DNA of 48,929 bases, taken from the IMG/VR virus record IMGVR_UViG_3300005581_000022, positions 1 through 48,929 of that record. The stretch is one strand, 5' to 3'. The stretch comes from a virus. Below are positions 16,042-48,816 of the stretch, piece after piece (position 1 is the first letter of the stretch; each line of letters starts with the position of its first letter). The position numbers and the translations under genes are program-made. Under the pieces are notes generated by a model. The model was not told the origin of the DNA and did no database searches. It worked only from the letters and a program-made list of their open reading frames with translations.

Positions 16042-18123
16042 TTATTTACACTCAACCTTCATATTAAATATTGTTCTATCTAATGGTGAGAAAACAATTA
16101 TGTTAATGGTGAAATCTTTTTGTTCTTTTGTGATAGTAAATGATGAATTTTTCTTCATTATAGGTCCATAAGATTTATATTTACCACCTAATTGTGTATT
16201 ATAATCTCCCATGTTTTCATTTTTAGTAATGTCAATATTTATGTTTTTTATTTCATCAGTTACTTTTTTAGCCTCAGTATCACCTTGTTTAAAAATGGAA
16301 TCTACTTTAAGTTTACCACCAACACTACCAATCGCAGCATTAATACTTTCTACTAAACCTTCTTTTTCCTTATAATACATTAATTCACCAACAAAATTTC
16401 TTGGTGTATTAGTTGTAGAACTTAAGTCATCATCTTTGGTTGTATTAATATAGTGAATCATACTTTTTGGTTGTATGTATAACATTTTCTTTCTTTCATC
16501 TGCACTTAATGCAACTTGTTTATATTCATTATTCCAAACATCACCCATAAATCCACTAAAGAATTCTTGATCACCGTATTTCACATAAAATGCGTCTGGA
16601 ACAACTAGTGAATCAAAGGAAATTGTTATAGTATTACCTTCACCTACTGGGAATGCACTATTCACTGCCTTAGATACGAAATTATTTGCCTTTACACCTC
16701 TACCCCCTTTGGTTTCTGCGTTATAATTACACTTTAATGGGGGTGGTGGTTCCGCTCTACATAAACAAGATGGTTCAATTCTTATTGGTTTCTCTGTAGG
16801 ACAAACACAGTCACCCTTATCATTTTCTACTAAATCTCCAGTACATTCACATTTTTTCTTTTCTAAATTATATTCCGTACATTCATCACATTTAGGACAA
16901 CTACAATCTGGTAATACAGGTATTTTACCTGCCACATCACAGTAACACTTGCCGTCTATTGTATATGTCCCTTCTTTACATTTACATTCACCTTTTTCGT
17001 CTTTTTCCATACATTTAGGACAAGGACATCCACATTTCTCATCTGGTAAAATTTTAAATTCTTTATCACAATAACATTTACCATCAGGACCTTTATTTAA
17101 ACCTGATATACATTCACATTCACCGCCCTTAACTAATCTCTCCATACAATCAGGACATTCTTTTTCATCCTCTTCTCTACATTTACAATCTTCTTTAATT
17201 TGACCCGGAGGACATTCACATAGTTTGGTTTCTTTATTATAAATCAAACCATCGGGACACTTACATTTACCATCTACGTCTTTTTGCATACAGGGATCAG
17301 TACATAGTTCTTCATCTTTAAGTGTATAACAAACATTTGCGGTAACTGCGACAATTTGTCCAGGATTAAGTCCACCTTGACTAATTAATTTCACCCACAT
17401 CTCATCAACATTATCCTTAGTGTACATTGTACCACCCTCAATATATTTTACTGTTGCGTTAGGATCTACTCTTAAACCAATTGTTTTACCGTCTTTGTCT
17501 AATGTAGTTTTTATTGATTCAAATAAATTTTTTGCCCTATCAGACGCCAATTTTGTATTTGTTTTCTGACTTCCTGTATAACTTGGCTTTGGTAATTTTT
17601 TACCACTAAACGGTTTAAATTCAAAGTCTGTACAAACCCCACCATAACCTGAATCAGGTTTAATTTCCCATTTTTTACAATAGTTATTATCCCATCGAGG
17701 TTCTACAATACCCGAATAATAGTTACTCGCAAACCCTTGAAGAGTGATGTCTCTGATATACATAGTACCACTATCTAAACCTTTTTTATATTCAGGATTA
17801 GAGTTAATTATTAGTCTTACTGAATTTAAAAAATTTTCTACCGCTTTTGATCCTGTAGGTACATCCACCTTAAATCTACCTGTTGCCTTTACTATAAAAC
17901 ATTCCGTTTTATCTGCAGTTTGGTTTTGTTCACCTTTAGAATCGACTTTAGTTTCTTGATTTTGTTCCGTTTTTTCTCCTTCGGGTTTATTCTCCGTTGG
18001 TTTAGTTTCCGCAGGTTTATCTTCCCCTGTTTCCGCACTAGTACTTACCTCAGTAATAGGTGTCCCTTTCTCATACACCATCAAATTTTTTATCCTATCT
18101 AATTCCTCAAATAAATTTCTCAT
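16042..18123 (-). CDS. Virion-associated protein with targeting-like N-terminus, OmpA-like domain and EGF-like Cys repeats, 693 aa
   Basis: I start it at the ATG at 18123 (MRNLFEELDRIKN); the open frame extends to a TTG at 18135. Residues 1-26 form a short amphipathic helix ending in a PITE site, like several other proteins here. Residues about 27-74 are a Glu/Lys/Thr/Pro linker. Residues about 76-266 resemble an OmpA-type domain: ITLQGFAS, then KLASDRAKNLFESIK (the N..L(S/A)..RA..V helix), then YIEGGT. Residues about 274-456 hold roughly 32 cysteines in repeated CxC...CPxC units similar to EGF/TIL modules, rare in phages. A PPPP linker leads to a 230-residue C-terminal domain of unknown type. 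It is first in the run leading to gp25/gp6. A peptidoglycan- or surface-contact role is inferred. Confidence 0.8.
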   Translation of the reverse strand: MRNLFEELDRIKNLMVYEKGTPITEVSTSAETGEDKPAETKPTENKPEGEKTEQNQETKVDSKGEQNQTADKTECFIVKATGRFKVDVPTGSKAVENFLNSVRLIINSNPEYKKGLDSGTMYIRDITLQGFASNYYSGIVEPRWDNNYCKKWEIKPDSGYGGVCTDFEFKPFSGKKLPKPSYTGSQKTNTKLASDRAKNLFESIKTTLDKDGKTIGLRVDPNATVKYIEGGTMYTKDNVDEMWVKLISQGGLNPGQIVAVTANVCYTLKDEELCTDPCMQKDVDGKCKCPDGLIYNKETKLCECPPGQIKEDCKCREEDEKECPDCMERLVKGGECECISGLNKGPDGKCYCDKEFKILPDEKCGCPCPKCMEKDEKGECKCKEGTYTIDGKCYCDVAGKIPVLPDCSCPKCDECTEYNLEKKKCECTGDLVENDKGDCVCPTEKPIRIEPSCLCRAEPPPPLKCNYNAETKGGRGVKANNFVSKAVNSAFPVGEGNTITISFDSLVVPDAFYVKYGDQEFFSGFMGDVWNNEYKQVALSADERKKMLYIQPKSMIHYINTTKDDDLSSTTNTPRNFVGELMYYKEKEGLVESINAAIGSVGGKLKVDSIFKQGDTEAKKVTDEIKNINIDITKNENMGDYNTQLGGKYKSYGPIMKKNSSFTITKEQKDFTINIIVFSPLDRTIFNMKVECK

Positions 18124-18139
18124 ACTTTTAACCAATTTT

Positions 18140-18171
18140 TTTGGCAGTTAAAAAAATATATACTATATTTG
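18140..18171 (+). promoter_or_regulatory. Bacteroidetes-type promoter of the metalloprotease gene
   Basis: TTTG at 18140-18143 and TATATTTG at 18164-18171 are separated by exactly 20 bases, matching the Bacteroidetes primary-sigma consensus TTTG-N19-21-TAnnTTTG. Read as a sigma70 promoter it is TTGGCA-N17-TATATT. Transcription would start about 15 nt before the ATG at 18193. Confidence 0.75.
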
Positions 18172-18182
18172 TTATATAAATA
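18172..18182 (-). promoter_or_regulatory. TATTTATATAA box between divergent genes
   Basis: Exact TATTTATATAA on the minus strand, about 48 nt upstream of the 693-aa gene's ATG at 18123, preceded by G rather than A. On the plus strand it reads TTATATAAATA and lies just downstream of the metalloprotease promoter, so its target is ambiguous. Confidence 0.35.
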
Positions 18183-18192
18183 CTTAACAACT

Positions 18193-18750
18193 ATGAAAAA
18201 AATACTTTTATCCCTTTTATTTTTAAATAGTATTATATGTTTTTCTCAGAAAAACTTTACTATGGAGGAGTTTAATTCTATCACAAATAATGGTGAGAAA
18301 TGGAAAAAAGATATTAAATTTTTTATGTATGGTAAATACACAAAAGAAGATTCCTTAACTGTAGTTAAAACTATAAATGAATTCAATGATTTGATTGAAA
18401 TTATTACACTTAAATTGGTTAGTGATATAGATTCATCTAACAGTGTGATTTATTTTTTAAGTGACAGTGAATATATTAAATTATATCCTTCAAGTGAAAG
18501 TGGTATAAGGAATTCTATAGGGTTAACAAGTAAGTATTTTGTATTTAAAGATATAGTAGAAAGTAGAGTTCATATCGATATTATAGAGTGTACAAAATAT
18601 CACTGTACTAGTAGTACCATAATTCATGAAATGTTTCACCTATTAGGTTTTAGGCATATAGATGGAGAAAAGAACAGTATTCTGAAGGGTCATACAGAAG
18701 TATTAACCGAAAAAGATAAAGAAATGATTTCTTATTTATATAAACAATAA
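18193..18750 (+). CDS. Secreted matrixin-like zinc metalloprotease
   Basis: Start ATG at 18193; an in-frame upstream ATG at 18169 lies inside the promoter and is rejected. The 185-aa product opens with a signal peptide, MKKILLSLLFLNSIICFSQ, with likely cleavage near residues 18-19, typical of Flavobacteria. The catalytic motif HEMFHLLGFRH (His135, Glu136, His139, Gly142, His145) is a perfect metzincin HExxHxxGxxH. The following NSILKGH, LTEKDKEMISYLY matches the end of matrixin (M10) domains, with Leu154 where the Met-turn methionine is expected. It is the only plus-strand gene, has its own promoter and terminator, and converges on the DUF5522 gene: the signature of an independently acquired accessory gene. 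It probably cuts a periplasmic or extracellular protein; the substrate is unknown. Confidence 0.88.
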   Translation: MKKILLSLLFLNSIICFSQKNFTMEEFNSITNNGEKWKKDIKFFMYGKYTKEDSLTVVKTINEFNDLIEIITLKLVSDIDSSNSVIYFLSDSEYIKLYPSSESGIRNSIGLTSKYFVFKDIVESRVHIDIIECTKYHCTSSTIIHEMFHLLGFRHIDGEKNSILKGHTEVLTEKDKEMISYLYKQ

Positions 18751-18778
18751 AAGTCGGATTTCTCCGACTTTTTTTATT
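18751..18778. terminator. Bidirectional intrinsic terminator
   Basis: AAGTCGGA (18751-18758), a 4-base loop, then TCCGACTT (18763-18770), followed by a T run on the plus strand. On the minus strand the hairpin is followed by TTTTATTG. It starts at the base after the metalloprotease stop codon and lies just past the stop of the DUF5522 gene, so it serves both converging transcripts. Confidence 0.9.
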
Positions 18779-18986
18779 TTAAAGTTTTAGTACCTTTAAT
18801 ATGTTTAGGTTCGTATGGGCAATGTAAACAACCATTTCCACAACAACTTCCCCTTAGTTTATGGTATTCTTCAGTCATTACCATTCTACCCTGATTATCA
18901 TAATAGAACTGATTGGGTTGTAGTTTCGATCCAAATTCCCTTACATATAATTGTTGTACCCAATCCTTAGATGCACCTATATTCAT
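18774..18986 (-). CDS. DUF5522-type small Cys-rich protein
   Basis: A 70-residue protein from the ATG at 18986. Its core, TEEYHKLRGSCCGNGCLHCPY at about residues 38-58, matches the CCG-GC-HCPY cysteine signature of DUF5522, a family of short proteins found mainly in Bacteroidetes chromosomes. The four clustered cysteines plus His suggest a metal or iron-sulfur site, but the biochemical role is unknown. It follows the ribonucleotide reductase by 2 bp and is the last gene before the bidirectional terminator, so it is probably translated along with the reductase. Whether it supports that enzyme (for example in redox or cofactor supply) is speculation. Its presence supports a Bacteroidetes host. 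Confidence 0.82.
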   Translation of the reverse strand: MNIGASKDWVQQLYVREFGSKLQPNQFYYDNQGRMVMTEEYHKLRGSCCGNGCLHCPYEPKHIKGTKTLK

Positions 18987-18988
18987 AA

Positions 18989-20848
18989 TTATACTATTTC
19001 ACACGCACCTCCTCCGCAAGCAACCTCACCAGAAAGATTAGTATTATCTTGTAATTCAATAACTTTAGATAAGTCAATATTACTCAAAGATTTCATCATC
19101 TTTTCATAAGTTTCTACATCACAGTCTTCAAAAGGTGCTTGTTGGTATGTTCCTCCATTATATGGTAATACTGATAACCCATTATAGAATTTTCTATTTT
19201 CCCACATCCATTCACCAGCGTATTCCCATTCATCTTCTTTTAAAGATATTGTTGCAGATACATTGTGACTGTTTTGTCCTCCTCTATGTCCTGGTTTAAT
19301 CCATTCTTGAGATACTTTTTTAACTCTTTCCAATAAATCAAAAGATGATTCATATCTTAAGATAGACCCCTCAGGTGATTTTTGTGGGATTGAGATAACT
19401 GCAGTATCATGTGGTCTAAATATTTCATCCTCTACTAATTCGGGATGATTTACGGATAAGTATGTATAAATTGCTTCATTCTTCCCTACTCTAATTCTTC
19501 TTACATAGTAATCGTTATGCCAAGCATGAATACCAGAAGATGTACCTAAAACTAACGATGATGTCCCTGAAGGTTTAACTGTAGTAGTTCTCGCTGCGTT
19601 ATTAATACCAATTAATTTTGCAACTCTTTCGTTCTCTTCTTTAACCGCCTTAGCAGCCAACTTCATATCATAACCTAAAACTACTCCAGATCCAATACCT
19701 GTCATTCCTACACCAATTAATGCATCTTTTTCTGTTGTTCTTTTCCACACATCTCTTAGATAATGAAAGTCTGTATATCCCGCCTGTAATGTACCGATAA
19801 ATGCTGCACCTCTAACTCTTTTTTCAAAGTCTTCTTGTGATTCAATATCTGAAGCATTAACCTCACACAAATTACAGAATTGATATGGTCTCAAACCAAT
19901 CTCACAACAAGGATTTGTTCCCCAATCTTTATCGTTTGATAGATAAATTCCTGGTTCACCTGCCCCTGACAGTTCAATTCTTTTCCATAAATCTAAGAAA
20001 AATTCTTTCGTGATTTTATGTCTAAGTAATACTGCCGAATTATTTGATCTACCTCTTTGTGGATTTAATTCCCACCAATTTCCTGATTTACAAGAAATCA
20101 TTTCATTGTCATCCGCACTAAATAAACTAATTAATGCTGCTCTTCTAATACCGCCTGCTAATACTGCATCTGCAATATGACAAACTATATCGTGAACCTC
20201 AATAGGTGATAATTTTTCACCATCAGATTTAGCATCTAATACTTTTTTAATATTATGAATACAATCTTTTAATGGTTGTGGTCCAGGTGCTTTACCACCT
20301 GATGTCACTAATAACGCACCTTTATGTCTAATATCAGAAAAATCAAAGATAGGTGTCGATGACTTTATACCGAAATAAGATTCAACTAACATCTTAATTG
20401 CGTCTGCCCATCCTTCAATAGAATCTCCGATTAAATATCTTCTATTTCTATTAGGATTTGGTTTTTTAATATCAGGTAATGACTCAACGTGATGTTTTTG
20501 TACTGAGAATCCTACTCCTGTTCCACCTAAAAGTAAGAACATTGTTTCTGAAAATGCGTCAACATGATCAATAGGTAGGTATGCACAGTTATAAACTCTA
20601 TTTGGTGATATTTCTATCGGTTTACCACCAAATTGTAAACTTCTCATTGAAGGTAATATTTTTTTGTCATACACCAATGTGTAAACATTCTCAATTTCAT
20701 TTTTAATGTGAGGATATTTTTTTTGATGCATTTCTTTATTTCTTGTAACTAACTCTTCCCACGTTTCTCTTCTATTTTCTTTGGGAAGATATTTGGCATA
20801 TTTCATATATACCGTAATGTTTGATAGAATATTGTTTGATAACTCCAT
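18989..20848 (-). CDS. nrdJ: Adenosylcobalamin-dependent (class II) ribonucleoside-triphosphate/diphosphate reductase
   Basis: A 619-residue protein that converts ribonucleotides to deoxyribonucleotides for phage DNA synthesis. Recognisable segments are the substrate-site cysteine in VYNCAYLPIDHVDAFSE, the LLGGTGVGFSVQ loop, the active-site motif NPCCEIGL (Asn312, Cys314, Glu316, matching the N-x-C-x-E of class II enzymes), the phosphate-binding KPSGTSSLVLGTSSGIHAWH stretch, and a C-terminal redox pair in CGGGACEIV. The lack of a separate beta subunit gene next to it and the close similarity to monomeric B12-dependent reductases support class II. It lies 87 bp downstream of the helicase gene and 2 bp upstream of the DUF5522 gene. 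An extra cysteine (Cys315) directly follows the radical-site cysteine. Needing host or environmental B12 is inferred. Confidence 0.92.
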   Translation of the reverse strand: MELSNNILSNITVYMKYAKYLPKENRRETWEELVTRNKEMHQKKYPHIKNEIENVYTLVYDKKILPSMRSLQFGGKPIEISPNRVYNCAYLPIDHVDAFSETMFLLLGGTGVGFSVQKHHVESLPDIKKPNPNRNRRYLIGDSIEGWADAIKMLVESYFGIKSSTPIFDFSDIRHKGALLVTSGGKAPGPQPLKDCIHNIKKVLDAKSDGEKLSPIEVHDIVCHIADAVLAGGIRRAALISLFSADDNEMISCKSGNWWELNPQRGRSNNSAVLLRHKITKEFFLDLWKRIELSGAGEPGIYLSNDKDWGTNPCCEIGLRPYQFCNLCEVNASDIESQEDFEKRVRGAAFIGTLQAGYTDFHYLRDVWKRTTEKDALIGVGMTGIGSGVVLGYDMKLAAKAVKEENERVAKLIGINNAARTTTVKPSGTSSLVLGTSSGIHAWHNDYYVRRIRVGKNEAIYTYLSVNHPELVEDEIFRPHDTAVISIPQKSPEGSILRYESSFDLLERVKKVSQEWIKPGHRGGQNSHNVSATISLKEDEWEYAGEWMWENRKFYNGLSVLPYNGGTYQQAPFEDCDVETYEKMMKSLSNIDLSKVIELQDNTNLSGEVACGGGACEIV

Positions 20849-20935
20849 TTTTTATTTTATTTTTTTATTATTTATTAAGGTGTTTGTTCCCATAATGATT
20901 TATTTTATAAACCATTTATTTTATTAATTTACAAA

Positions 20936-22327
20936 TCAATTATTATTCATTGGTGTACTTCTTTTCTTTTGTATTGTACTAGCAATGAAATCAGAATCTT
21001 GTTTTTTCAAACCTTTTCCGTGTTCTAAAAGTGTAACATCATTACATTCACTAGTGTCAATAACCAAAGTACCATTATCAAAAACTATATCCGGAAAAAT
21101 AACACCATCTCTACCAAATCTAGATTTAAGAACTGCCAATGTAGCCCTTCCTTCTTCTTTTTGTTCCAATGTTTTTGCTACGGATAAAATAAAGTGACCT
21201 ATCTGTCCCTTTTTAATAGAACCACCCATCATATTAGCCTCTACTAAATCTGCACCAATAGAACTACGGTTTCCTTGTACTGCAGTCCATCCAGCGATAT
21301 CTAGTTCAGATAACATAGTTTCAAATTGTCTCATTACATTTCCTTCACCACTATATTCATCTTTAAACTGTTTAGTAGGTTGTACACAGTCAATGTAATC
21401 TAAAAAAACGATATCAGGTTTAATACCAGAAGAAATTAATTTTCTAAGATATTGTTTGATGTGGGTAATTGTTGTACCATCACTAGACATCTTTTTCAAA
21501 ATTAAATTATTTTCTAAGTTTTGAAATCTTGGTAAGAATTCTTTTACTTCTTCTCTTCTATCACCTAAATCACTTAAGTCGATACCAGTAAAACAAGAAA
21601 AGTGTTTTCTTTGTATAACTTTAACGTTGTCTTCGAAAAATATCTGTACAACGTTTTTACCAGTCAAATACGCAGTGTTTGCCATTCTAGTCATAATAGT
21701 TGTTTTACCAACACCAAATGCGGCTAAAATAACACCCAATTCACCCTTAGATAATCCTCCACCCATAAGATTATCAATTCCAGTTAAACCTGTTGCAATA
21801 GGACTTCTAAAATCTTCCGATAACACATCTTCAATGGCATGAAATATATCAATACCTTCATCCTTTTCAGTACCAACAGATATCGCCTGTTTTACTAATT
21901 CCTCACACTCTTCATATCTATCAAAATCTCCATTATCCAATATTTTTTGGATTTTCTGAGTAGCCTTCTTAAGTTCTTGTTGTTTGCAGAACTTAATGGC
22001 AACATCTTGTGTGTGTAAACAGTCTTTATTGTCAGATTCTTTCACTTCTTTAATTAATTCAACTGCCGATTCTCTCGCAATTTCTCTACGGACTTGTGTT
22101 TTAATTAGATTAAAGATAGTTTCATAAGAAGGTATTGTTTCATACTTTTCATAGTAATCTTTCAAACTAGCCACAATTAGTCTCATATATTCATTATCAA
22201 AATAGTTGGGGTCAACTATTGAAATGATGGTTTCTGAAAATTTATGATCTTCCACTAATTGTTTTACTAACTTTACTTGAAAACTATAGCCTAAATAGCC
22301 TAAATTAATACTCTCATTTTTCGACAT
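20936..22327 (-). CDS. Replicative DNA helicase, gp41/DnaB-like
   Basis: A 463-residue protein (T4 gp41 is 475). The N-terminal ~150 residues are helical, as in the DnaB N-domain. The RecA-like motor follows: ATGLTGIDNLMGGGL, a Walker A AAFGVGKTT around Lys210, the IFFEDN segment with the catalytic Glu, Walker B IVFLDYID, and the VQGNRSS and LSVAKTLEQKEEGRATLAVLKSR regions typical of SF4 helicases. It would unwind the fork 5'-3' on the lagging strand. It is downstream of the 5'-3' nuclease and an unknown gene in the replication block; no primase is visible in the window. There is no Shine-Dalgarno sequence in its leader. Confidence 0.93.
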   Translation of the reverse strand: MSKNESINLGYLGYSFQVKLVKQLVEDHKFSETIISIVDPNYFDNEYMRLIVASLKDYYEKYETIPSYETIFNLIKTQVRREIARESAVELIKEVKESDNKDCLHTQDVAIKFCKQQELKKATQKIQKILDNGDFDRYEECEELVKQAISVGTEKDEGIDIFHAIEDVLSEDFRSPIATGLTGIDNLMGGGLSKGELGVILAAFGVGKTTIMTRMANTAYLTGKNVVQIFFEDNVKVIQRKHFSCFTGIDLSDLGDRREEVKEFLPRFQNLENNLILKKMSSDGTTITHIKQYLRKLISSGIKPDIVFLDYIDCVQPTKQFKDEYSGEGNVMRQFETMLSELDIAGWTAVQGNRSSIGADLVEANMMGGSIKKGQIGHFILSVAKTLEQKEEGRATLAVLKSRFGRDGVIFPDIVFDNGTLVIDTSECNDVTLLEHGKGLKKQDSDFIASTIQKKRSTPMNNN

Positions 22328-22341
22328 TCTTATTTCTGATT

Positions 22342-22824
22342 TTAGTTATTAATAAATATCCTATCTAGGTTATAACCGCAGTAATTTTTAGTATAATTTT
22401 CCATACTTAACCCCTGTTGTAAATAATCGATGATTTTAGGAATAATTTTTCTTATGTCCACATCATATCTTACATTTGGTGGATAATCATTACCACTAAA
22501 AATTTTTTCACATACAACTCTATCCTTAACTTTTAATTGGAAGGTGAAGTAGTCTTCATTGTCATATATACTAACCTTATCTGTTTCTTCTGCCGTAGTA
22601 TAATAATTAGAATACTTTTCCATATAATCGTATGTATTATTCTTAAAATGTTCTCTTATGACATGTACTACACTATCTATTATCTCTTTTAATTCATATG
22701 ATGAGATAGATTCTTTATTGAAATTTCTAATATTAAAATTTCTTCCCACAATTGTGTTTCCGTTAATCATAAATAAGAATTCATAAGGATAACTTTGGTA
22801 ACTTTTTTTCATTTCTTTAAACAT
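22342..22824 (-). CDS. Hypothetical protein in replication operon, 160 aa
   Basis: Start ATG at 22824 (MFKEMKKSYQSYPYEF), overlapping the end of the 5'-3' nuclease gene by 8 bp, so translation is probably coupled. It is soluble and rich in Tyr, Asp and Lys, with an alternation of short beta strands (EFLFMINGNTIVGRNFNI; YFTFQLKVKDRVVCEKIF) and helices, suggesting one compact alpha/beta domain. I recognise no family. Its place between the nuclease and the helicase suggests a replication accessory role, such as a helicase-loading or regulatory protein, but nothing in the sequence proves this. Confidence 0.75.
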   Translation of the reverse strand: MFKEMKKSYQSYPYEFLFMINGNTIVGRNFNIRNFNKESISSYELKEIIDSVVHVIREHFKNNTYDYMEKYSNYYTTAEETDKVSIYDNEDYFTFQLKVKDRVVCEKIFSGNDYPPNVRYDVDIRKIIPKIIDYLQQGLSMENYTKNYCGYNLDRIFINN

Positions 22825-23860
22825 AAATTTGATTAAAATAACTTTTTTCTTTTTTTATTATTGGTAAGAATGGTTGTAAAAAATTAATATAACCATCACT
22901 ACCACCTGGAATCGCCATCATCAACCCATCCTCTATCATCATCTTAATTACATTTTTTACTTCTCTACCTTCAGGATCAATAGAAGTATTAAAGATGTTA
23001 TCTAACTCTGATTTAGTTGTTTCAGTTAATAATGGTTTTTTTAGATTTATGATTTTTTCATTGATTTCAAAAATCATATCTTTTTGTGAACCTTTAGTAA
23101 CTTTATTAAGTATATTATCTAGTGATTTCAATCTATTCTTTCTTTCGTTTTGTATAGTTACAATCTTACTAAAAATATATTCTAAAGTCAAAGTTTTTTC
23201 TCTTATTTCGGGAAAAAAGTTAACTAAAGTTTTTTCACTGACACCTTGTATACCTTTTATACAGTCACTATTATCACCAGTAATAATTTTTATTAATTTA
23301 AGATTGGATGGATGGTGGTTAAAATATGTTAAATAATTATCTTGTGTAACTATTTTTTTTAGATTTAAAACATATATACCAACTCTTTCACTTATTAATT
23401 GACATAGATCTCTATCATTACTCATTATAACAACTTTCTCATCTTCTGACATATTTTGGACGTAATAACCGATACAATCATCGGCTTCTGTGATATCGTC
23501 CCTATATTGTCTAATGAATAGTTCTTCACAATAAGAAATTACTCTTTCTTTTTGAAGGTATAGTTCTAAATCTGATGGTGGTTGTTCTACATAGAAATCC
23601 TTATCTCTATTAGATTTATATTCTTTGTAGATATCATACCTTAATCTACCACTGAATTGTCCATCCCAGAAAACATAGACTCTATCGAATTTATATTCAT
23701 TCATCATTTTCCTAACCATAGTTAAGAACTGAAAAATACCACCTATGTGGGTGTCTTTATAGTAAAGATCTTTAGCCCCATGATAGGCGGTTTTAATCAA
23801 CGAGTCACCATCAACAACAAGTGTTTTTTTAAATTTTTTCTTCTTATCTGGGAATTTCAC
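22817..23860 (-). CDS. 5'-3' exonuclease / RNase H of the FEN-1 type (T4 RNase H-like)
   Basis: A 347-residue protein; T4 RNase H is 305. The only in-frame start after the upstream stops is a GTG at 23860 (MKFPDKKKK). The metal-binding acidic set of FEN-type nucleases is visible: Asp17 and Asp19 in VVDGDSLIK, Asp66 in VFWDG, Glu125/Asp127/Asp128 in TEADDCI, Asp149 and Asp151 in MSNDRDL, and Asp196/Asp199 in TGDNSDCIKG, followed by the helix-hairpin-helix-like IQGVSEKTL. It would remove RNA primers from Okazaki fragments. It is 25 bp downstream of uvsX and overlaps the next gene. Confidence 0.92.
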   Translation of the reverse strand: MKFPDKKKKFKKTLVVDGDSLIKTAYHGAKDLYYKDTHIGGIFQFLTMVRKMMNEYKFDRVYVFWDGQFSGRLRYDIYKEYKSNRDKDFYVEQPPSDLELYLQKERVISYCEELFIRQYRDDITEADDCIGYYVQNMSEDEKVVIMSNDRDLCQLISERVGIYVLNLKKIVTQDNYLTYFNHHPSNLKLIKIITGDNSDCIKGIQGVSEKTLVNFFPEIREKTLTLEYIFSKIVTIQNERKNRLKSLDNILNKVTKGSQKDMIFEINEKIINLKKPLLTETTKSELDNIFNTSIDPEGREVKNVIKMMIEDGLMMAIPGGSDGYINFLQPFLPIIKKEKSYFNQIYV

Positions 23861-23885
23861 ACATTATTAGTTGAAGGTTTAACAA

Positions 23886-24935: not shown

Positions 24936-24943
24936 AATATTTA

Positions 24944-25898: not shown

Positions 25899-25900
25899 TA

Positions 25901-25918: not shown

Positions 25919-26632
25919 TTATTTTTCTTCGGTTTTACTAAATTGAAAGGATTTTCTAATGTCTTTTTCATTATAGTTATCGACATCACTTTGTTTAAGT
26001 ACAAATTCTTCTTCGTTTTCTTCAGTTGCTTCATAACCTTCTTTGTCTTGCCAAAAGTCAGTTAATTTAACACTATATGGGAAAGAATTCATTGATCTCA
26101 TTTCTAATCTTTCAACAGGTGTTGGGTTTCTCTTTTCGATTTCTTTTTCTAAGTCATCAATTTTATTGATTACGTTATCCATACCAGAAACTTGACTTTC
26201 TAATTCAGATAATTTATTCAATAATTCATCCATTTTACTACTCATACCTTCTACAGAAGTCTTAGTTGCTTCTGTTTTATCTACAATATCAGTCACATCT
26301 ATTTCAACAGAACCATCATCTGTTCCAGTACTCGTCTCAGGAGTCTCAGTTGCAGTCTCAGTTTCATCCGCAGCCACATCTTCTACTTCCGCATCATCTG
26401 CCAATGGATCAGTTTTAGGTGTTTCCGCACCAGACTCAGGTGCAGTTTCGTCACCACCTACTGACATAAAAGGATCTTCTTCCGTTTCACCAGCGGGATC
26501 TTGTTCTGTTATATATTGATCATCTGTAAGAAGATTACCATTTTCATCTTTTTCATTTTCAGGTACATAAAATGTGTACTCCAATAATTGTCTATATCTT
26601 TTTAATTCCTCAGAAAGTACTTTTTTGTTCAT
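25919..26632 (-). CDS. Acidic coiled-coil protein with targeting-like N-terminus, 237 aa
   Basis: Start ATG at 26632. The N-terminus, MNKKVLSEELKRYRQLLEY, is a short basic-amphipathic helix of the kind shared by several large proteins in this window, and a YITEQ site follows at about residue 43. Residues about 45-115 are extremely acidic and rich in Glu, Asp, Thr, Ala and Pro. Residues about 120-170 have a heptad pattern (MDELLNKLSELESQVSG, then INKIDDLEKEIEKR) predicting a coiled coil. The C-terminal 60 residues are mixed. Acidic plus coiled-coil composition recalls phage scaffold or internal head proteins. It is 1 bp downstream of a 62-aa acidic gene and upstream of gp32. A virion or scaffold role is inferred. 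Confidence 0.75.
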   Translation of the reverse strand: MNKKVLSEELKRYRQLLEYTFYVPENEKDENGNLLTDDQYITEQDPAGETEEDPFMSVGGDETAPESGAETPKTDPLADDAEVEDVAADETETATETPETSTGTDDGSVEIDVTDIVDKTEATKTSVEGMSSKMDELLNKLSELESQVSGMDNVINKIDDLEKEIEKRNPTPVERLEMRSMNSFPYSVKLTDFWQDKEGYEATEENEEEFVLKQSDVDNYNEKDIRKSFQFSKTEEK

Positions 26633-39634: not shown

Positions 39635-39639
39635 ATAAA

Positions 39640-40782: not shown

Positions 40783-40796
40783 AGCAAATTACTTTT

Positions 40797-40807
40797 TTAT
40801 ATAAATA
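40797..40807 (-). promoter_or_regulatory. TATTTATATAA box upstream of the 380-aa gene
   Basis: Exact TATTTATATAA on the coding strand, ending 14 nt before the ATG at 40782. Confidence 0.5.
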
Positions 40808-40830
40808 TAAAAAAAAAGATAAAATTATTA

Positions 40831-40977: not shown

Positions 40978-41737
40978 AAAAAAAAGTCGAGTTGAATCTA
41001 AGAAAGGTGTCTAAGGACTCTCCTCCCTGAGTCCTAGCGGTAGTTTTAAAATTTAATCCCGGTGTAATCTCATCGATATATTTTCTTAATGATCTTGAGT
41101 CAATGATAGGTAACTTTTTAACAATGTTTGAAATTTTAATTTTATCTCTTTCACCATCAATTGATTTTATATGTTGTTCTAATGTAAAAATTATTTTATT
41201 TGATACCCCATCTGCATTTCTTTTACTATCTTCTTTCTCTCTTAAGTCAATAATTTCCTCATCTTTTCCTGTTAATAATTTAAAAGTCACTTTTTTACCT
41301 GTTTTTGGTAAAACAAAATCAAACTCTCCATCTTCGTCAGATTTAATAACTAATTTTTTTTGAGAAAGAGTTGATAAATTTATAATTCCATCCTCATATT
41401 GACCACTATTAGGATTAAATACTAATTGATTGTATTCTTCTCCGAATGCAGTAACTCTTAAATAAACCATAAGAGCGGTTCTATCACCTACTAATAAATC
41501 TTCAACATTAAAACCTAAATCTTTAACTTTTCTTTTTAATAATACATCTATAATTTTACCACCACTAGAAATATTAGGTGAAGTTAAAATGGATTCATCC
41601 ATTGCAGTTAAATATTCTACCTTAACTGACTTAACTTTATTTTTGTATAGTATACCTTGTGAAGGTAATTCTATAATGTCATACGGTGTCCTATATTCCT
41701 CTGGAACAAAATCTGGACTTAATTGGTTTTCACTCAT
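40964..41737 (-). CDS. gp26-like baseplate/tail assembly protein (T4_baseplate family)
   Basis: A 257-residue protein starting MSENQLSPDFVPEEYRTPYD. The pattern LPSQGILYKNKVKSVKVEYL, then TAMDESILTSPNISSGGKI, DVLLKRKV and LLVGDRTALMVYLRVTAFGEEYNQ is the diagnostic core of the T4 gp26/baseplate family (LPS-G-LY...TA-DE-LLTSP...LL-GDR...LR...YG-EY). The usual zinc-type cysteines of relatives are missing here (FNPNSGQYED replaces the C-x-C pair). The protein ends STFFWPEL in the zero frame after a T8 run. In T4, gp26 belongs to the hub pathway; relatives beside the tape measure act as assembly chaperones. Confidence 0.85.
   Translation of the reverse strand: MSENQLSPDFVPEEYRTPYDIIELPSQGILYKNKVKSVKVEYLTAMDESILTSPNISSGGKIIDVLLKRKVKDLGFNVEDLLVGDRTALMVYLRVTAFGEEYNQLVFNPNSGQYEDGIINLSTLSQKKLVIKSDEDGEFDFVLPKTGKKVTFKLLTGKDEEIIDLREKEDSKRNADGVSNKIIFTLEQHIKSIDGERDKIKISNIVKKLPIIDSRSLRKYIDEITPGLNFKTTARTQGGESLDTFLRFNSTFFWPEL
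40978..40985 (-). other. T8 slippery run (candidate programmed frameshift site)
   Basis: Eight consecutive T on the coding strand, in ACT TTT TTT TGG. A zero-frame stop follows 15 nt later, whereas the +1 (or -2) frame continues for 48 codons. The -1 frame stops after two codons. Confidence 0.6.
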
Positions 41738-41774
41738 AAATTATATTATATAAAACTTTTATTTATTGTAAATA

Positions 41775-44114
41775 TTAAAAATTACATAAACTTTTTTGTT
41801 TATCGTACCAAAAAATAAATGCGTCGTCCCAATCATCACTCATTCTTTCTATTGAAGGAAATACCGGTTTAAAATATTCATCAAAAACCATAAAAATTTG
41901 TGTATTTACCCTACCTTTAGAAGAAGGATCAAACCAATCTGGTGTTATATCTACATTACATTCTAGTTGTACTACACCTTCGCCCCATAAGAACTCCATT
42001 AAACTTTTACTTTTAGTTTCGTCTTTACCATTTTCATTACACCACATAGTAAATTCACCAACAACATTTTCCACACTAACAACTTCTGTACTTTCTGCAC
42101 CTGTATTACATTTTGCCTCAATTACTACCCTATTAATCCAATTTGTTAATGTTATGAAAAATTCATCTACTGTAGTTACGGAACCAAATATATCTGACCT
42201 TTTCATTATATCAATGTAAACTTTAGGAATTTCTTTATTTTTATCACTTACATCTACGGTTAAATAACCTGCATCTCCATAAGTTTTCATTTCTTGAATT
42301 TTCACATTTACTTCATTCTGTAAAGAATTACAATCCTTAGTTTCAACTATTGTAATAATCTCATCCCAAAGAGTTTTTATTCTCTCCTCAACACAAGGTA
42401 ATGCCTTTTTATTACATTCCATTCTTAGAATCTCAATAAAAGTCATTGGTCGCCCATCTTTGGTTAGGTACTTACTAACAGTCTCATTGTTTTTAGCCTC
42501 TTCCATAATCTGACGTATTATAATATCTGGATCCGCAGCACCCATACCTGATACTTTTTCCTTTAATATGTTTGGATCAATATTCCTAATTGCCGATTCA
42601 TACTTATCCAAAAATTCTGTGTTACCAATAATAGATCTTAATTTATTATCATCATTACAAGACATACAACATTCTTTATCACCGCTTTCATCTTTAGGAC
42701 ATATTTTTTCTACTTCAGTTAAAATATATCCGTTAAATTCCTGCATTGGACCCAATATATCCTCCTCAAAAATTGTCTGAGCAATATCCTTACCTATGTT
42801 TGTTAACGATTGGAATACTTCACCAACACACATTGCAAGTTTAGTAAATATTCCTTTTTCTGTAATAGCACCTTTACCCCCACCTTTTTCTCTTAACGCA
42901 ATTTCTTCGGGAGTTAATTTTTCAGAAGATAAAAGACAAATTGCAGATCCTATAACAACTGCTGAAGGTATTGCAATCAATAAACCAAGTTTAATATTTC
43001 TTATTCTTAGATCTCTTTTTGCTAATTGTTCTACTGCAGTTGTTCCAGCCTCACTATTCTTTGCTTCAGTAAAATCTATACCACCATCCTTCAATATTTG
43101 TTTATAATTTTCTAAATCTTTTTTACTTTTAAATTCTAAAATAAAAATGGTTTCGGGGTCATTATTTTTATTATAAAATACTATAGTATTACTCCAATCT
43201 AAATCTTTATTTTTTATTGTTTCTAATTTAACTAATATTTTTTCAGATTGCCATACCTTCAACTTATTTAAAAAACTACTTTCTAAAACTTTATATTTAG
43301 GATCCGAAGAAAATGATTTTTTAAATAAAGTTTTAAAATCCGTACCATCCCACTCATCTAAACCGACTTGAGATTTTATTCTTCTCCATATATCATATAA
43401 TTCTAATTCTTTGGGTGTTGATCCATTTTTTAAATCATCTAACATTTTAATTGTATTTTCAATCTCATCTATTGATTTTACACCGTCTTCACTAACAAAC
43501 CCTAAAATAAGTGATCTAAAATCTTCAGGTTTACTTTGTTTATTCCACATTTGACTTATTTTGTTTAATTTATCCAACGCAAAATCAGTTTTAGTTAATT
43601 GAGACATTAGATAATTAACATTAACTAAATCTTTTATTTGTGTTTCACTAAGATTTCTAAGTAAGTCATTTGGAATTTCATTACTTAATCCATTAATATA
43701 ACTTTTCATTGTACTAAAATCTACTACCACACCCATCTCTCTAAAATAATTACTCAAAGTATTCGCAAACGTTGTACTAAAATTATCCATAGTAACTCTT
43801 AAACTTTTCGCATTTAATAAATTTTTTAAATTATCAAAAGAACCACCCGATGTTAGATTTCTAATTGCTGAGTCATAATCATCTATTGCCTTACTCATAG
43901 ATGAAATGGCAGACTCTATTCTAGTTATCATTAGTTCACTACTAGAACCCATACCTCTCATTAAACTTTTTGAAAGTCTAACTAAATCGTCACCGATTCC
44001 TTCAGTAATAATCATTTTTATACTTTTATTTACTTCATTGAACGTCTTTCTACCCTCAATTCTTTCCATCATAAGTCTAAAATTATTTTTATCTAAATTT
44101 AAATTCTTTTTCAT
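41775..44114 (-). CDS. Large protein with targeting-like N-terminus and one membrane helix, 779 aa
   Basis: Start ATG at 44114 (MKKNLNLDKNNFRLMMERI). The first ~40 residues are basic and amphipathic and end at an IITEG site, like the other members of this set. Residues about 50-370 are helical and charged. Residues about 375-395 (KLGLLIAIPSAVVIGSAICLL) form one clear membrane segment. A CCMSC cluster follows near residue 485, and the last 300 residues are mixed alpha/beta with scattered cysteines. It lies 1 bp downstream of the 1181-aa gene and upstream of gp26-like. No family is recognised. Membrane span plus targeting-like leader fits a protein packaged in the head and inserted in the host membrane at injection; this is inference. 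Confidence 0.75.
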   Translation of the reverse strand: MKKNLNLDKNNFRLMMERIEGRKTFNEVNKSIKMIITEGIGDDLVRLSKSLMRGMGSSSELMITRIESAISSMSKAIDDYDSAIRNLTSGGSFDNLKNLLNAKSLRVTMDNFSTTFANTLSNYFREMGVVVDFSTMKSYINGLSNEIPNDLLRNLSETQIKDLVNVNYLMSQLTKTDFALDKLNKISQMWNKQSKPEDFRSLILGFVSEDGVKSIDEIENTIKMLDDLKNGSTPKELELYDIWRRIKSQVGLDEWDGTDFKTLFKKSFSSDPKYKVLESSFLNKLKVWQSEKILVKLETIKNKDLDWSNTIVFYNKNNDPETIFILEFKSKKDLENYKQILKDGGIDFTEAKNSEAGTTAVEQLAKRDLRIRNIKLGLLIAIPSAVVIGSAICLLSSEKLTPEEIALREKGGGKGAITEKGIFTKLAMCVGEVFQSLTNIGKDIAQTIFEEDILGPMQEFNGYILTEVEKICPKDESGDKECCMSCNDDNKLRSIIGNTEFLDKYESAIRNIDPNILKEKVSGMGAADPDIIIRQIMEEAKNNETVSKYLTKDGRPMTFIEILRMECNKKALPCVEERIKTLWDEIITIVETKDCNSLQNEVNVKIQEMKTYGDAGYLTVDVSDKNKEIPKVYIDIMKRSDIFGSVTTVDEFFITLTNWINRVVIEAKCNTGAESTEVVSVENVVGEFTMWCNENGKDETKSKSLMEFLWGEGVVQLECNVDITPDWFDPSSKGRVNTQIFMVFDEYFKPVFPSIERMSDDWDDAFIFWYDKQKSLCNF

Positions 44115-44115
44115 A

Positions 44116-47100
44116 TTATATAGTTTTCATTTTTTCTATTAATTCACTTAATAAAAATCCATTGTCATAATTTGACCATTTCTCTTCTAAAAATTCAGAT
44201 AATGTCATACAAGTACCACTAGCACCTTTAAATAACTCTGCATTTCCACCAGTTGTATTATCTAAGCCTGTTAAACTGGAGATATCTATGGGTATATTTA
44301 TACCACCAATATTTATATTGTGATTTAATTTAATTTTTTTATTATCTTTATCCATCAATTTTACTATAACAGTATTACTTAGTTTATAATCTGATCCATC
44401 AGTAGTCCAGTCCCCCTCTATTTTTACAAATTTTAAGCCTGCACCAAATTCACCTGTTGCAATATCGTATCCATCTTTGGTTATCATAATTTTAATCGTA
44501 CTACCACCAATAGTGACTTCTTTTTCACATGAATGACTATCATCAAACATAAAATACATATTAAATCTATTATTCTCATTTAACCCCTTTTCAAAAAGAT
44601 TAACTAAGTAAAAATGATTTACTCTTCCAGTTTTTGCTTTTAGAAAAACACCTAAATAACAACCATCAGGTGATGTACCTGACTGAAAAGATAGTGTAGA
44701 ATCAGTTTTATATTTCCCATAAATTTTTCCTAATTCAGTTCCTGGATTTAAACATATATCTCCTTCATTTCCTGCCCTTACTATATAATTTTTACTTTGG
44801 AGAAAAGCAATTGCCTCACCCTCATTATCACATGCTTCATTTACTAAATTACCGTATAACCTTTCATTTGTAAATAATGATTTAATTCTATTTATCTCTT
44901 CGTTTAGTTTCATTTTTGATTTATTATATGTTTCATTTTTAATTAGTGTACTATCACCATCGACTTCTACATCCACTTCTAATAAAAATTTTTGAAATGT
45001 TTTTAAATCTTCAGGGGTTAATTTTTTATTACTTGTTACAACTACTGCAGTCTTTTCTTCTTTTGATATCTTAGGTTTTTCAATACCTTTTAATGTGATA
45101 ATAACATTAGATATTTTTCGAATAGATTCTGTTTCACTAACAGATTTATTAATTATCCCTTCTAAAATAGGTATGACTAAATCTGTAACTTCTTTAATAT
45201 CTTTGTGTTTGTATCTTCTACCGTCAATTTGATATGACACTTCTTTTTTAAGTGCCGTAACTGAATTTAAAAGAGAATCCCCAGTATCACTTTTTAATAT
45301 TTCTGAAATTTTAATAGAAAAATCACTTAATAATTTAGTCTCTTCAATAAAAGTTTCTGTATCTATAAAACCACTCTCACTTAATTTTTCTGCCAACAAA
45401 TCAATTTTTTCATTATTAGAAATGATGTCAGTGTAATCTGGAGATAATTGTTCCTGATCTATTTCTCCTGTTTCTGTAAATATACCTAATGGATCAAAAC
45501 CGTAATTTAAATAAAGGTTTTGTAATCCTTTTGCAATATCTTCACTAAATACATATAATCCTGCGAATAGAGAACCTTGTATCACAAATTGTTTCACACC
45601 TTTAAAGTATGAATTAACCATCTTATTTAAATCTTTACCATATTTATTATATAATTCTTCTATTTTTTTAGGATCTTCGTTTTTAAATATGTCACTCAAT
45701 ACACCCCTTTGTTGAGGATCTAAATTTTTTCCTTGTCTATTTAAATCAGTAATTAAATCTCTATATTTTGGAGTATCTACTTTCTTTAATAATTCTTTAA
45801 ATTCGTCAAACATCTTTAATTCCTCAGGATTTAATGTTCTAGACCATTGAGCGATTTCTCTTTCTAACCCTATTAAATCATTACCATATTGTGTAGTTAT
45901 ATTACCTAACTCACCTAATTTAGCACTAAATTTACTTCCTTTACCTGCTAATTTTAAAGCCTCTCCCAAACCAAATAACGCACCTAATGCGGTTAAACTG
46001 GCATTAATTTCCCATCCTTCATCTTCTTCTACAACATATCCTATTGCACTAACTAAATCTATTAATCCACTAACCAATACTCCCACAGGACCAAATGTTA
46101 ATGAAACTATAGAAGCTACATCTGATATACAATGCCAATCAGATGCACAATCAGATGACCAGTCTCCTACCTTTTCCAACCCACTCCTAATATCCCCAAT
46201 AGATTTACCACACCAGTCATTAATGTTAATATCTATAACATAGTCACCATCAACCCCATTTACCGTTACTTTTGCAGTACCATTTGGTTTAACACAACAA
46301 CAAACAGTTTTATTATCTATAAACCCAATCCTTGACATTCCTGTAGTTCTTTTAGAAGGGGTAGTTGGTGTCATAAACATACCACCATTATTTTTACATA
46401 CATCACTCCATTTAAATGTTTCATTTATTTCAGGAGAATGTCCACCAGAACCTGGAGCACCATAACCTACAGGTAAAGAAACTGTCTTATAAATTGGATT
46501 TGAACAAGCATTTTTATGTCTTTCCTTAGTTTGTAAAGAAATTATAATATTATGTTCATCAATTATCTCTAAAACTTTATCATATTTATTATAGAAAACT
46601 AAATTATCTTTAAATTCAGTCCCTAAACTATCTAATTTTTTCTGTAATTTTATTTTTTGATTATAATCCTTTAAATTATCTTCATAGTTATCTTTTGCGA
46701 TATTATTAAATATTTCAATACTTTGTAATTTTTGGTAATATGATCTACCCAAACTACCTTCAGGATCTAAAACTTGTGTATTTATATCTCCGTCATCTCT
46801 AGGACCACCTGTGTATGTATTATCCACCTGTTCTATTGGTTTTTCAGGTTTAAAACCTATAGACAAATCACCAAAATAATTTTTTAGTTTATCATCAAAA
46901 GAACGACTAACCAAAATCCTTTCAACATCATCTGTCCCAACAATGCCACTAGATAGTGCAGAATTCATCATTTTAATTTTTAACTCCTCTAATTTCTCAA
47001 TTATATAAGAAGGGTTAATACATGTCGATACACCTATTTTACTGTCTAATATATCCGTTATCTTATCACTGTTTACTGTTTTTGTACCAGTCCATCCAAA

Positions 47101-47661
47101 GTAACTACTTACTGCGTCCCAATTATTTATAGCACTTTTATAGTTTTTATACTCTTTATAATTATCATATTGTATAATGTCTATTGGTGGATACACTCCA
47201 TCGGAAACAGGTATACCAAATTTTTTATAGTTAGGATTGTTTCTGTCTGTATCTAAACCTGCAAAATCATCTACACCTTGCCACCCTTTACCTTTGTTAG
47301 ATTTTAAATAATCTTGACCGACTGTTCTCCATGCGATTTTCATGTAATCGTTGTTATATCCACCAATTTTACTTAAACCATCCGTCAAACCATTTTTAGA
47401 AAGTTCTTTATTTACTTTACTTAACCTTTTACTATCACCCCTAACCCAAGATCTGAAATTATCACCATCACTTTTATTTTTAATGTGGTAAGTAAATAAA
47501 TCATCAACAGGTATAGTCTTAATTGAATACTTACCACCATCAAAAGGACTTGTTGGTGATACCTGAGCACCCTTTGATTTACCGTTTTTCTTTGGTGGAT
47601 TTTGTTCCACTAAGAAAACCCTTTTAAATTGTTCTTCAGATATTACAACTCTTTTTTTCAT
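44116..47661 (-). CDS. Giant protein with two targeting-like motifs (N-terminal and internal) and hydrophobic region, 1181 aa
   Basis: Start ATG at 47661 (MKKRVVISEEQFKRVFLVEQ). Residues 1-18 form a short amphipathic helix ending at FLVEQ. A soluble N-terminal region contains FRSWVRGDSKRLSKVNKEL and YNNDYMKIAWRTVGQDYL. Cysteine-rich spots occur (CCCVKPNG near residue 450). Residues about 510-570 are strongly hydrophobic and Gly/Ala-rich (SIVSLTFGPVGVLVSGLIDL, then a second similar helix), as in membrane-penetrating proteins. At residue 917 a fresh Met begins MKLNEEINRIKSLFTNER, almost the N-terminus of the neighbouring 383-aa protein, leading into a 265-residue beta-rich domain. This suggests fusion of two ancestral genes. 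Function is unknown; an ejected or internal protein is plausible. Confidence 0.78.
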   Translation of the reverse strand: MKKRVVISEEQFKRVFLVEQNPPKKNGKSKGAQVSPTSPFDGGKYSIKTIPVDDLFTYHIKNKSDGDNFRSWVRGDSKRLSKVNKELSKNGLTDGLSKIGGYNNDYMKIAWRTVGQDYLKSNKGKGWQGVDDFAGLDTDRNNPNYKKFGIPVSDGVYPPIDIIQYDNYKEYKNYKSAINNWDAVSSYFGWTGTKTVNSDKITDILDSKIGVSTCINPSYIIEKLEELKIKMMNSALSSGIVGTDDVERILVSRSFDDKLKNYFGDLSIGFKPEKPIEQVDNTYTGGPRDDGDINTQVLDPEGSLGRSYYQKLQSIEIFNNIAKDNYEDNLKDYNQKIKLQKKLDSLGTEFKDNLVFYNKYDKVLEIIDEHNIIISLQTKERHKNACSNPIYKTVSLPVGYGAPGSGGHSPEINETFKWSDVCKNNGGMFMTPTTPSKRTTGMSRIGFIDNKTVCCCVKPNGTAKVTVNGVDGDYVIDININDWCGKSIGDIRSGLEKVGDWSSDCASDWHCISDVASIVSLTFGPVGVLVSGLIDLVSAIGYVVEEDEGWEINASLTALGALFGLGEALKLAGKGSKFSAKLGELGNITTQYGNDLIGLEREIAQWSRTLNPEELKMFDEFKELLKKVDTPKYRDLITDLNRQGKNLDPQQRGVLSDIFKNEDPKKIEELYNKYGKDLNKMVNSYFKGVKQFVIQGSLFAGLYVFSEDIAKGLQNLYLNYGFDPLGIFTETGEIDQEQLSPDYTDIISNNEKIDLLAEKLSESGFIDTETFIEETKLLSDFSIKISEILKSDTGDSLLNSVTALKKEVSYQIDGRRYKHKDIKEVTDLVIPILEGIINKSVSETESIRKISNVIITLKGIEKPKISKEEKTAVVVTSNKKLTPEDLKTFQKFLLEVDVEVDGDSTLIKNETYNKSKMKLNEEINRIKSLFTNERLYGNLVNEACDNEGEAIAFLQSKNYIVRAGNEGDICLNPGTELGKIYGKYKTDSTLSFQSGTSPDGCYLGVFLKAKTGRVNHFYLVNLFEKGLNENNRFNMYFMFDDSHSCEKEVTIGGSTIKIMITKDGYDIATGEFGAGLKFVKIEGDWTTDGSDYKLSNTVIVKLMDKDNKKIKLNHNINIGGINIPIDISSLTGLDNTTGGNAELFKGASGTCMTLSEFLEEKWSNYDNGFLLSELIEKMKTI

Positions 47662-47664
47662 ATT

Positions 47665-48816
47665 TTAAACATTAGTCAACACAAACGAACCAACATCCAT
47701 TTTATCTGTTTCAATTGCCTTTTGTATTACAATTCTTTGTTTATTTGAATCAATGTTTAATTCTTTATAGATATAACTTACATATTCTTTTCTGAATTTA
47801 ATATTACCTTTATCATTCTTATCTACTAAGGGAACATTCATTTTGGAACGGAAATTAAATTTGTTTGCACCAACCTTTTTAACTATTGCAAGTTTAGTAC
47901 CATTTTGATCCTTAACAACGTATCTTTCTCCTTCAACTCCGCCTGCAACTATTTTTTCATCAAAGTTATCGCCAGTAATTTCTTCAGTATCATTTCCTGA
48001 TATTTGTTGCATTACTTTGGTAGGATCTAAACCTAATGTTTTATACATTATTCTAATCTCATCTCCCTTTCTAAATAATCCTTCTTTTTGAAAAACGTTT
48101 CTAAAAGTAGACATACACCATACTACACCATCAATCTCTTCTTTTTGAAATTCTTCTTTGGTTTTACCTTGTCTAACTTGTTTATACATATCCTTCATGT
48201 GATCTCTACACTCATCCTTACTCATATTAATCTCCTTTTTGGTTGCATTAACATCGTCTTTTCTTTGTTGTTTAACATTGCCCGCATCTTTATTTGTGGA
48301 GAATTCAGGATTCGTTCCCGACTTAGATTTTAACCAATCAGATTTCAATGCCACGCTCAACTGAGTTTTAAATGATTCTGCGTCAATCTTACCTACTTGT
48401 TCAGATGATAATACATATCCATCACCAGTACTAATAGAAAGTTTTTTACCCTCAGGACCAATACTCAAAGAACTATTCCAACTTGTAACCAAACCATTCT
48501 CAACTTTAATCATAATATAAAAATTTAAAGACCCCCTATTAAAATCAAAATCCTTAAATGCCTCTGTTTTACCAAGTTGTTCTACTTCATTCTTTATCTT
48601 AACAATGTTATAAGGTTTAAATTCTCTAAAATATGTGTTTTCACCATATTCAGGACCTGACTTTTTAAAATTATTAGAAGTTAAAATTTCTTCATATTTT
48701 TCAAGAGTGTCACCATTTACATCTTCAGTTATAAGATTACCGAACATTCTCTCTTCAGTAAAAAGAGATTTCATTCTTTCAATTTCCTCATTTAAAGTAT
48801 TACTATATTTTTTCAT
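47665..48816 (-). CDS. Hypothetical protein with targeting-like N-terminus, 383 aa
   Basis: Start ATG at 48816 (MKKYSNTLNEEIERMKSLF), followed by TEERMFGNLITEDVNG. The residues from LNEEI to GNLITE closely match an internal segment of the 1181-aa neighbour. After this leader come a beta-rich domain (about residues 40-160), a basic helical linker with KQRKDDVNATKKEINM, and a domain with two cysteines (KDECRDHMKDMYKQVRQ and VVWCMSTFRNVF). No family is recognised. It lies 3 bp upstream of the 1181-aa gene, so both are expressed together. A TATTTATATA-type box lies about 10 nt upstream. The shared leader is the main clue to function. Confidence 0.75.
   Translation of the reverse strand: MKKYSNTLNEEIERMKSLFTEERMFGNLITEDVNGDTLEKYEEILTSNNFKKSGPEYGENTYFREFKPYNIVKIKNEVEQLGKTEAFKDFDFNRGSLNFYIMIKVENGLVTSWNSSLSIGPEGKKLSISTGDGYVLSSEQVGKIDAESFKTQLSVALKSDWLKSKSGTNPEFSTNKDAGNVKQQRKDDVNATKKEINMSKDECRDHMKDMYKQVRQGKTKEEFQKEEIDGVVWCMSTFRNVFQKEGLFRKGDEIRIMYKTLGLDPTKVMQQISGNDTEEITGDNFDEKIVAGGVEGERYVVKDQNGTKLAIVKKVGANKFNFRSKMNVPLVDKNDKGNIKFRKEYVSYIYKELNIDSNKQRIVIQKAIETDKMDVGSFVLTNV

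Follow-up and report, generated by a model that had tools for sequence, protein, structure and literature searches.

Short N-terminal leaders ending in (L/I)-x-E on many unrelated proteins of large T4-like Bacteroidota phages are probable head-targeting propeptides

Five large and otherwise unrelated proteins of a viral DNA fragment appear to open alike, which raises the question whether they share an N-terminal leader that, like the capsid-targeting sequence of the T4 internal head proteins, would bring them into the phage head and from there into the host. The stretch analysed (the window) is the entire IMG/VR virus record IMGVR_UViG_3300005581_000022, 48,929 bases long. It is a fragment of a T4-like myophage and encodes a recombinase, SSB, a helicase and baseplate proteins. 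The named phage nearest to it is Flavobacterium phage immuto, the recombinases being 43.5% identical; a search of the window DNA against named phages gave no match, and no tRNA genes were found on its 48,929 bases. Few of its genes lie on the plus strand, among them a 185-aa ORF with a signal-peptide-like start (18193-18750, MKKILLSLLFLNSIICFSQ), which is opposite in strand to the proteins considered here. At 18774-18986, a 70-aa protein matches DUF5522 well over the cut-off, and the 619-aa ORF adjoining it (18989-20848) resembles ribonucleotide reductase by the gene order in immuto. The five proteins are the following (arrows mark predicted cuts; the leader classes are listed further below):

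47665..48816, minus strand: 383-aa protein, class C leader in residues 1-31 (window 48724-48816), MKKYSNTLNEEIERMKSLFTEERMFGNLITE↓D
44116..47661, minus strand: 1181-aa protein, class A leader in residues 1-19 (window 47605-47661), MKKRVVISEEQFKRVFLVE↓Q
41775..44114, minus strand: 779-aa protein, distinct N-terminal leader in residues 1-38 (window 44001-44114), MKKNLNLDKNNFRLMMERIEGRKTFNEVNKSIKMIITE↓G
25919..26632, minus strand: 237-aa acidic coiled-coil protein, class C2 leader in residues 1-43 (window 26504-26632), MNKKVLSEELKRYRQLLEYTFY...YITE↓QDP
16042..18123, minus strand: 693-aa protein, class C2 leader in residues 1-25 (window 18049-18123), MRNLFEELDRIKNLMVYEKGTPITE↓V

The reading frames and lengths are as originally described, all five on the minus strand, and every one of the proteins has an (L/I)-x-E site (LITE↓D, LVE↓Q, IITE↓G, YITE↓Q and PITE↓V, in the order above). 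The single opening pattern proposed for all five, in contrast, is found in the 47665, 25919 and 16042 proteins and not in the other two. L/I-x-E-E-x-x-R-x-K-x-L, with K/R relaxed, has three N-terminal matches among 30 window proteins where 0.07 would be expected, and in pairwise alignments of the first 50 residues only these same three exceed shuffles (0, 0 and 2 of 200). The leaders of the 44116 and 41775 proteins each belong to a separate type that recurs in relatives, and alignment of the 41775 leader with the other four, judged against shuffles, was not significant. What had been read as one leader on five proteins is several leaders with one kind of ending.

In the leader HMM, the N-termini of the 47665, 44116 and 16042 proteins score 57.1, 30.6 and 36.6 bits. 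Orthologues of the 47665 protein (G001-G003, L203, L206) keep the leader and (L/I)-x-E while their bodies diverge, and those of the 44116 protein, whose AlphaFold model is too poor for use (pLDDT 44), read FLNE↓Q, FLNE↓S or FLTE↓Q at the site. The 41775 leader opens with MKKNLNLDKNNFRLMMERIEG and ends in IITE; its orthologues retain (IITE/ILTE/LIVE)↓GIGD, and a similar N-terminus is also found on G004:6300-8813, which belongs to another body family. About 50 orthologues of the 25919 protein, whose gene adjoins the SSB gene, keep LLEYxFY and (L/I)-(T/N/K/Y/S)-E↓QDP, joined by a linker that varies in sequence and length, and E43-Q44-D45-P46 is invariant in 18 aligned orthologues. A weak similarity of this protein to phage scaffold proteins comes from acidic low-complexity sequence and was discounted. 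In the 16042 protein, the leader is followed by a disordered linker, an OmpA-like fold and cysteine-rich repeats; the predicted model has a helix at residues 2-14, very low confidence at 10-71 and the body from 72, and the disordered stretch contains the cleavage motif. Its best PDB match, an OmpA-like peptidoglycan-binding domain, is weak (E 2e-3) and serves as a lead only. Searches of the five carriers with Pfam and PHROGs gave no hits for four and, for the 25919 protein, weak coiled-coil or tape-measure matches below the cut-off, hence no convincing family. The 25919 and 16042 proteins recur widely among relatives.

Relatives were gathered by searches with the recombinase and the 25919 and 44116 proteins, giving more than 150 related loci, and six large genomes or contigs were examined, immuto included; the nearest large one to the window is G001, of 254 kb. 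Genes were called with a simple ORF picker and all counts are approximate. An unsupervised comparison of the G001 N-termini gave 66 pairs scoring at least 45; the corresponding numbers were 5 with shuffled segments, 4 with internal ones and 11 with C-terminal ones. The main component of N-terminal similarity comprised 137 proteins of 95 body families, some chance links included. Clustering in the relatives separated at least seven types of short leader, which together mark dozens of unrelated proteins in a genome. They differ in sequence and nearly all end in (L/I)-x-E, and they would mostly be short, basic amphipathic N-terminal segments:

Class A: MKIIITESQYKRLILxE
Class B: MKRRLVRLTESDLTRIVRRVIKEE
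Class C: NLNEEIxRMKSLFTEERLYGNLxE
Class C2: MKNLFEELQRIKSLMVY...INE and LISEDLKRYKQLLEYTFY...LTE
Class D, of about 11 residues only: MKNLIRKILKEE
Class E: MGRIEKIKREMIMEANKRLLNES
Class F, from immuto: MENFDLKKFLVENKLTTNSKILKE

Each class had 7-29 matches of at least 10 bits, against 0-1.3 in shuffled and internal controls, with the exception of class F (4 against 0.2 and 1.0). In a profile search, the kind of check suggested with the original prediction, 40 of 282 G001 proteins reach 10 bits and, because the profiles were seeded on these same phages, they were also tested on phages picked by their capsid gene (G013-G015), where 33 of 791 proteins did so as against none of 1,392 bacterial chromosomal proteins from 80 loci, nearly all of Bacteroidota and allied phyla (p = 2e-15, a value that is too small, like the others given here, since related phages were pooled and independence is overstated). 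One held-out phage, G015, has the prohead protease and only one leader match by these profiles, so that either the system is not universal or there must be further leader types. It had been argued that an equal frequency on non-virion proteins would speak against a head leader; no leader was seen on any of 162 homologues of known proteins (replication, metabolic, portal/capsid or tail), against 125 of 1585 other proteins (p = 7e-6). A tblastn search of named phages with leaders of 20-24 aa, queries too short for this program, gave no match, and no description of these leaders was found in a literature search that subscription papers and preprints largely escaped.

With respect to the common ending, (L/I)-x-E lies within residues 9-45 in 118 of the 125 leader proteins, against 31% in their own interior, a count that is partly circular because the motif belongs to several of the profiles. 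The genome-wide count is free of this circularity: the motif occurs in 32-45% of phage N-termini against 20-29% of internal segments, and in bacteria in 17% against 26%. The major capsid protein gp23 of the relatives carries the same type of site: all 79 matches read (L/I/M)-(N/T/S/A/C)-E↓(S/T/A), and in the alignment they lie close to FLTE↓A of T4. Several leaders end in LLNE↓S or INE↓S, as do some of the relatives' gp23 sites. The gp23 of G001, which matches the capsid protein of T4, is encoded side by side with the scaffold and the S77 protease. The protease (PF03420) was found in G001, immuto and G013-G016, and it accompanies gp23 at 74 of 79 loci. The gp21-type protease that was to be sought outside the window is thus present in relatives. 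On the window contig, which is the whole record, no prohead protease, scaffold, gp23 or other recognisable head gene was found; the protease is probably missing there because the contig is incomplete, and for the window's own phage the link to protease and gp23 rests on relatives and on analogy. In one relative (L239:2522-4258), the protease homologue lies in a frame of 578 aa instead of the usual ~230 aa, which could reflect a fusion or an insertion.

Of the 66 genes between protease and gp23, 26 have leaders, whereas among the other 581 genes of these flanks the number is likewise 26 (OR 13.9, p = 8e-15, 16 loci). Small leader genes adjoin the protease in L286, L236, L242, L256 and L275, in the neighbourhood occupied in T4 by the core genes 67/68, and these core-gene-like carriers are more likely to be scaffold or core proteins. 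The head operon does not account for all carriers: many are encoded elsewhere, among them the 25919 protein. In the window, the 41775-48816 region adjoins a baseplate-hub gene, the G001 leader-gene cluster at 187063-198021 abuts the tail sheath gene, and in immuto leader-bearing genes are found next to the terminase.

Homologous bodies also occur behind unrelated leaders, with the similarity beginning at or near (L/I)-x-E:

G001:187063, LLTE↓QGIGRRL, and G001:193636, LISE↓QGIGRRL
G001:2389, class B, and G004:1466, class C, joined at NE↓GL
L242:11074, class B, and L236:10134, class E-like
G001:132375, ILKE↓DIPIY, and G005:49907, IIKE↓SIPIY

Some apparent swap pairs (L030) were mere alternative start codons and were dropped. 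A sixth leader of the window, overlooked in the original prediction, lies inside a protein:

44836..44913, minus strand: internal class C leader in the 44116 protein, residues 917-942, MKLNEEINRIKSLFTNERLYGNLVNE↓A

This segment scores 45.9 bits and is kept in four orthologues with a VNE↓(A/V)C site. The two halves of the 44116 protein correspond to adjacent, separate leader-bearing genes in G001 (190082-191920 and 189242-189925) and to two neighbouring ones in G002 (68462-70801 and 70974-71597). Judging from these gene arrangements, the internal leader marks a gene-fusion junction at which the LVNE site has been retained, and its retention inside a fused protein makes it unlikely that a role at translation start alone explains the leaders. 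In another relative, a 602-aa protein (L117:3308-5116, that is, G004:63308-65116) has internal leader-like segments of class D at about residue 172 and of class A at about 351, and looks like concatenated leader-body units. In a 188-aa protein (G002:36338-36904), residues 172-184 (EEVKRIKNLIIYE), at the C-terminus, resemble a leader; T4 Alt is processed at its C-terminus too (PMC9026906). A leader-bearing body with the motif YSFDWDDNIL recurs, alone or fused, at G001:193636-196632, G002:62079-62903 and G014:88593-89474. The motif is reminiscent of HAD-type phosphatases, and Pfam gave no match at 0.01 for the G014 copy.

The carriers span about 70 to 1181 aa, and most of them resemble no known family. 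Among 82 that were scanned, the Pfam families found more than once all act on peptidoglycan (Peptidase_M23, PG_binding_1, NlpC/P60 and CHAP). Two related carriers near head operons, L266:776-2308 and L307:15696-18005 (the latter equal to G014:135696-138005), have class D leaders and a PolyA_pol nucleotidyltransferase domain. One of them has a weak match to a tRNA-ligase phosphodiesterase and is possibly a packaged tRNA-repair enzyme.

In T4, the first ten residues of IPIII are enough for packaging and gp21 cuts after L/I-X-E (PMC9026906), and IPI-IPIII, which have the leader alone in common, are injected and block restriction (PMC12373910). The present leaders resemble the capsid-targeting sequence of IPI-IPIII and Alt in that a short N-terminal segment ending in (L/I)-x-E stands on otherwise unrelated proteins (T4 ipII/ipIII MKTYQEFIAE↓A, ipI TITE↓A, gp23 FLTE↓A), and in that an S77 protease and a gp23 with the same type of site accompany them, here in relatives. 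They differ in that several leaders are unrelated to MKTYQEFIAE and to each other, that up to ~40 carriers occur per genome instead of a handful, that the carriers range over ~70-1200 aa, the 25919 protein being acidic, while the T4 internal proteins are small and basic, and that leaders also occur inside fused polypeptides. The leader HMMs did not match the N-termini of T4 internal proteins or gp23, and a class D2 profile gave only weak matches of 4-7 bits to T4 gp22 and gp67. Because the T4 leader is unmatched, we class the system as one that works like that of T4 and not as a member of its family. In giant phages, many head-protein propeptides are removed after Glu by a gp21-like protease (PMC10052503, PMC9026906). 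The systems of phiKZ gp175 and SPN3US gp245 are alike in having N-terminal propeptides ending in Glu, with cleavage predicted here; those of SPN3US are mostly long (111-254 aa, two of 20-24), whereas here short modules recur in classes and are swapped. Finally, the bS21-encoding freshwater Bacteroidetes phages (PMC9723584) and immuto (NC_055915) share with the present phages an arrangement in which terminase, portal, protease and capsid genes stand together with conserved hypothetical ones, as well as predicted or known Bacteroidota hosts; the bS21 clade probably belongs to the same lineage. Immuto, which has the gp21-type protease and is available in culture (immuto 2-6A), mainly uses another leader type (MENFDLKKFLVENKLTTNSKILKE); carriers in NC_055915 include 117631-118632, 118632-118931, 103806-104354 and 1803-2318, with predicted cuts after LLKE, ILKE or LINE.

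We consider it likely that the leaders are propeptides which work like T4 capsid-targeting sequences without being homologous to them, and that at least some mature carriers enter the host. The enrichment in the head operon, the gp23 site, the S77 protease, the swaps and the absence from bacterial proteins and from the 162 homologues of known phage proteins argue for this reading, so that the capsid-targeting role originally proposed is supported by independent lines, for several unrelated leaders instead of one. The leader would bring its carrier into the core of the assembling prohead, where the S77 prohead protease would cut after (L/I)-x-E, the site type of the major capsid protein, and thereby free the mature carrier within the head. 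Of this scheme, the motif, the gene for the protease and the agreement of the sites are seen. By analogy with T4, the mature proteins would remain associated with the DNA, and some of them at least would pass into the host along with it. The lineage would use several unrelated leaders for up to dozens of carriers per genome, among them cell-wall hydrolases, peptidoglycan-binding proteins and nucleotidyltransferases, and some units are fused as polyproteins in which a second leader and site persist. Because the tags share a protease-site ending and are concentrated in the head-assembly operon, it is probable that dozens of different tagged proteins are loaded into the heads of these phages, delivery to the host being the most likely purpose, and the carriers may form an injected effector set. 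Points against the propeptide reading are that some carriers, such as the two with PolyA_pol domains, resemble enzymes able to act in the infected cell, that many carriers are encoded away from the head operon, that class D is so short, that G015 has hardly any of these leaders and that the T4 leader is unmatched.

The carriers might instead be scaffold, core or other structural head parts that are never ejected as effectors, which we regard as possible but doubtful. The enrichment is indeed strongest for small proteins between the protease and scaffold/gp23, like T4 67/68, and the wide distribution of the 25919 and 16042 proteins is what one expects of structural parts; however, the dozens of unrelated bodies in accessory regions, varying between relatives, look like cargo, and wall hydrolase, peptidoglycan-binding and nucleotidyltransferase domains suggest cargo over scaffold. 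Wall-acting domains are also common in tail proteins, four of the window carriers lie among tail genes, and the leader clusters beside the baseplate-hub gene of the window and the tail sheath gene of G001 could point to a tail or baseplate address. We hold this to be improbable, given that homologues of sheath, tube, hub and baseplate wedge have no leader, that leaders concentrate between protease and gp23, and that gp23 has a site of the leader type.

Slighter still is the chance that the leaders have a role unrelated to the virion, for example in marking proteins for degradation, in directing them within the infected cell or as a translation-start preference. A few carriers do resemble intracellular enzymes, but a translation preference would not end at (L/I)-x-E, persist inside a fusion and skip replication genes, and the enrichment in the head operon and the match to the gp23 site would be left without explanation. 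That short charged N-termini of an AT-rich genome are alike by chance or composition is hardly credible: two of the five window leaders do not rise above shuffles, but the control counts per class (class F aside) and the difference between held-out phages and bacterial proteins oppose it. A broader version of the propeptide reading, to which we give even chances, is a modular head-addressing code, in which, throughout a widespread lineage of large Bacteroidota phages, several unrelated short leaders would each be recognised by the prohead core and removed by one protease, so as to bring a large, exchangeable arsenal of dozens of proteins per virion into the host, polyproteins that are cut apart in the head among them.

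If the propeptide reading is true, the packaged and injected proteins of many uncultured phages could be read from sequence alone, in parallel with the discovery of the T-even internal proteins via their leader. Many uncharacterised genes would gain testable functions, such as anti-restriction, cell-wall passage and tRNA repair, and anyone wishing to load proteins into phage heads could draw on the leaders as natural tags. Both the leader swaps and the fusion that retains an internal site would then be natural experiments on the evolution of such tags.
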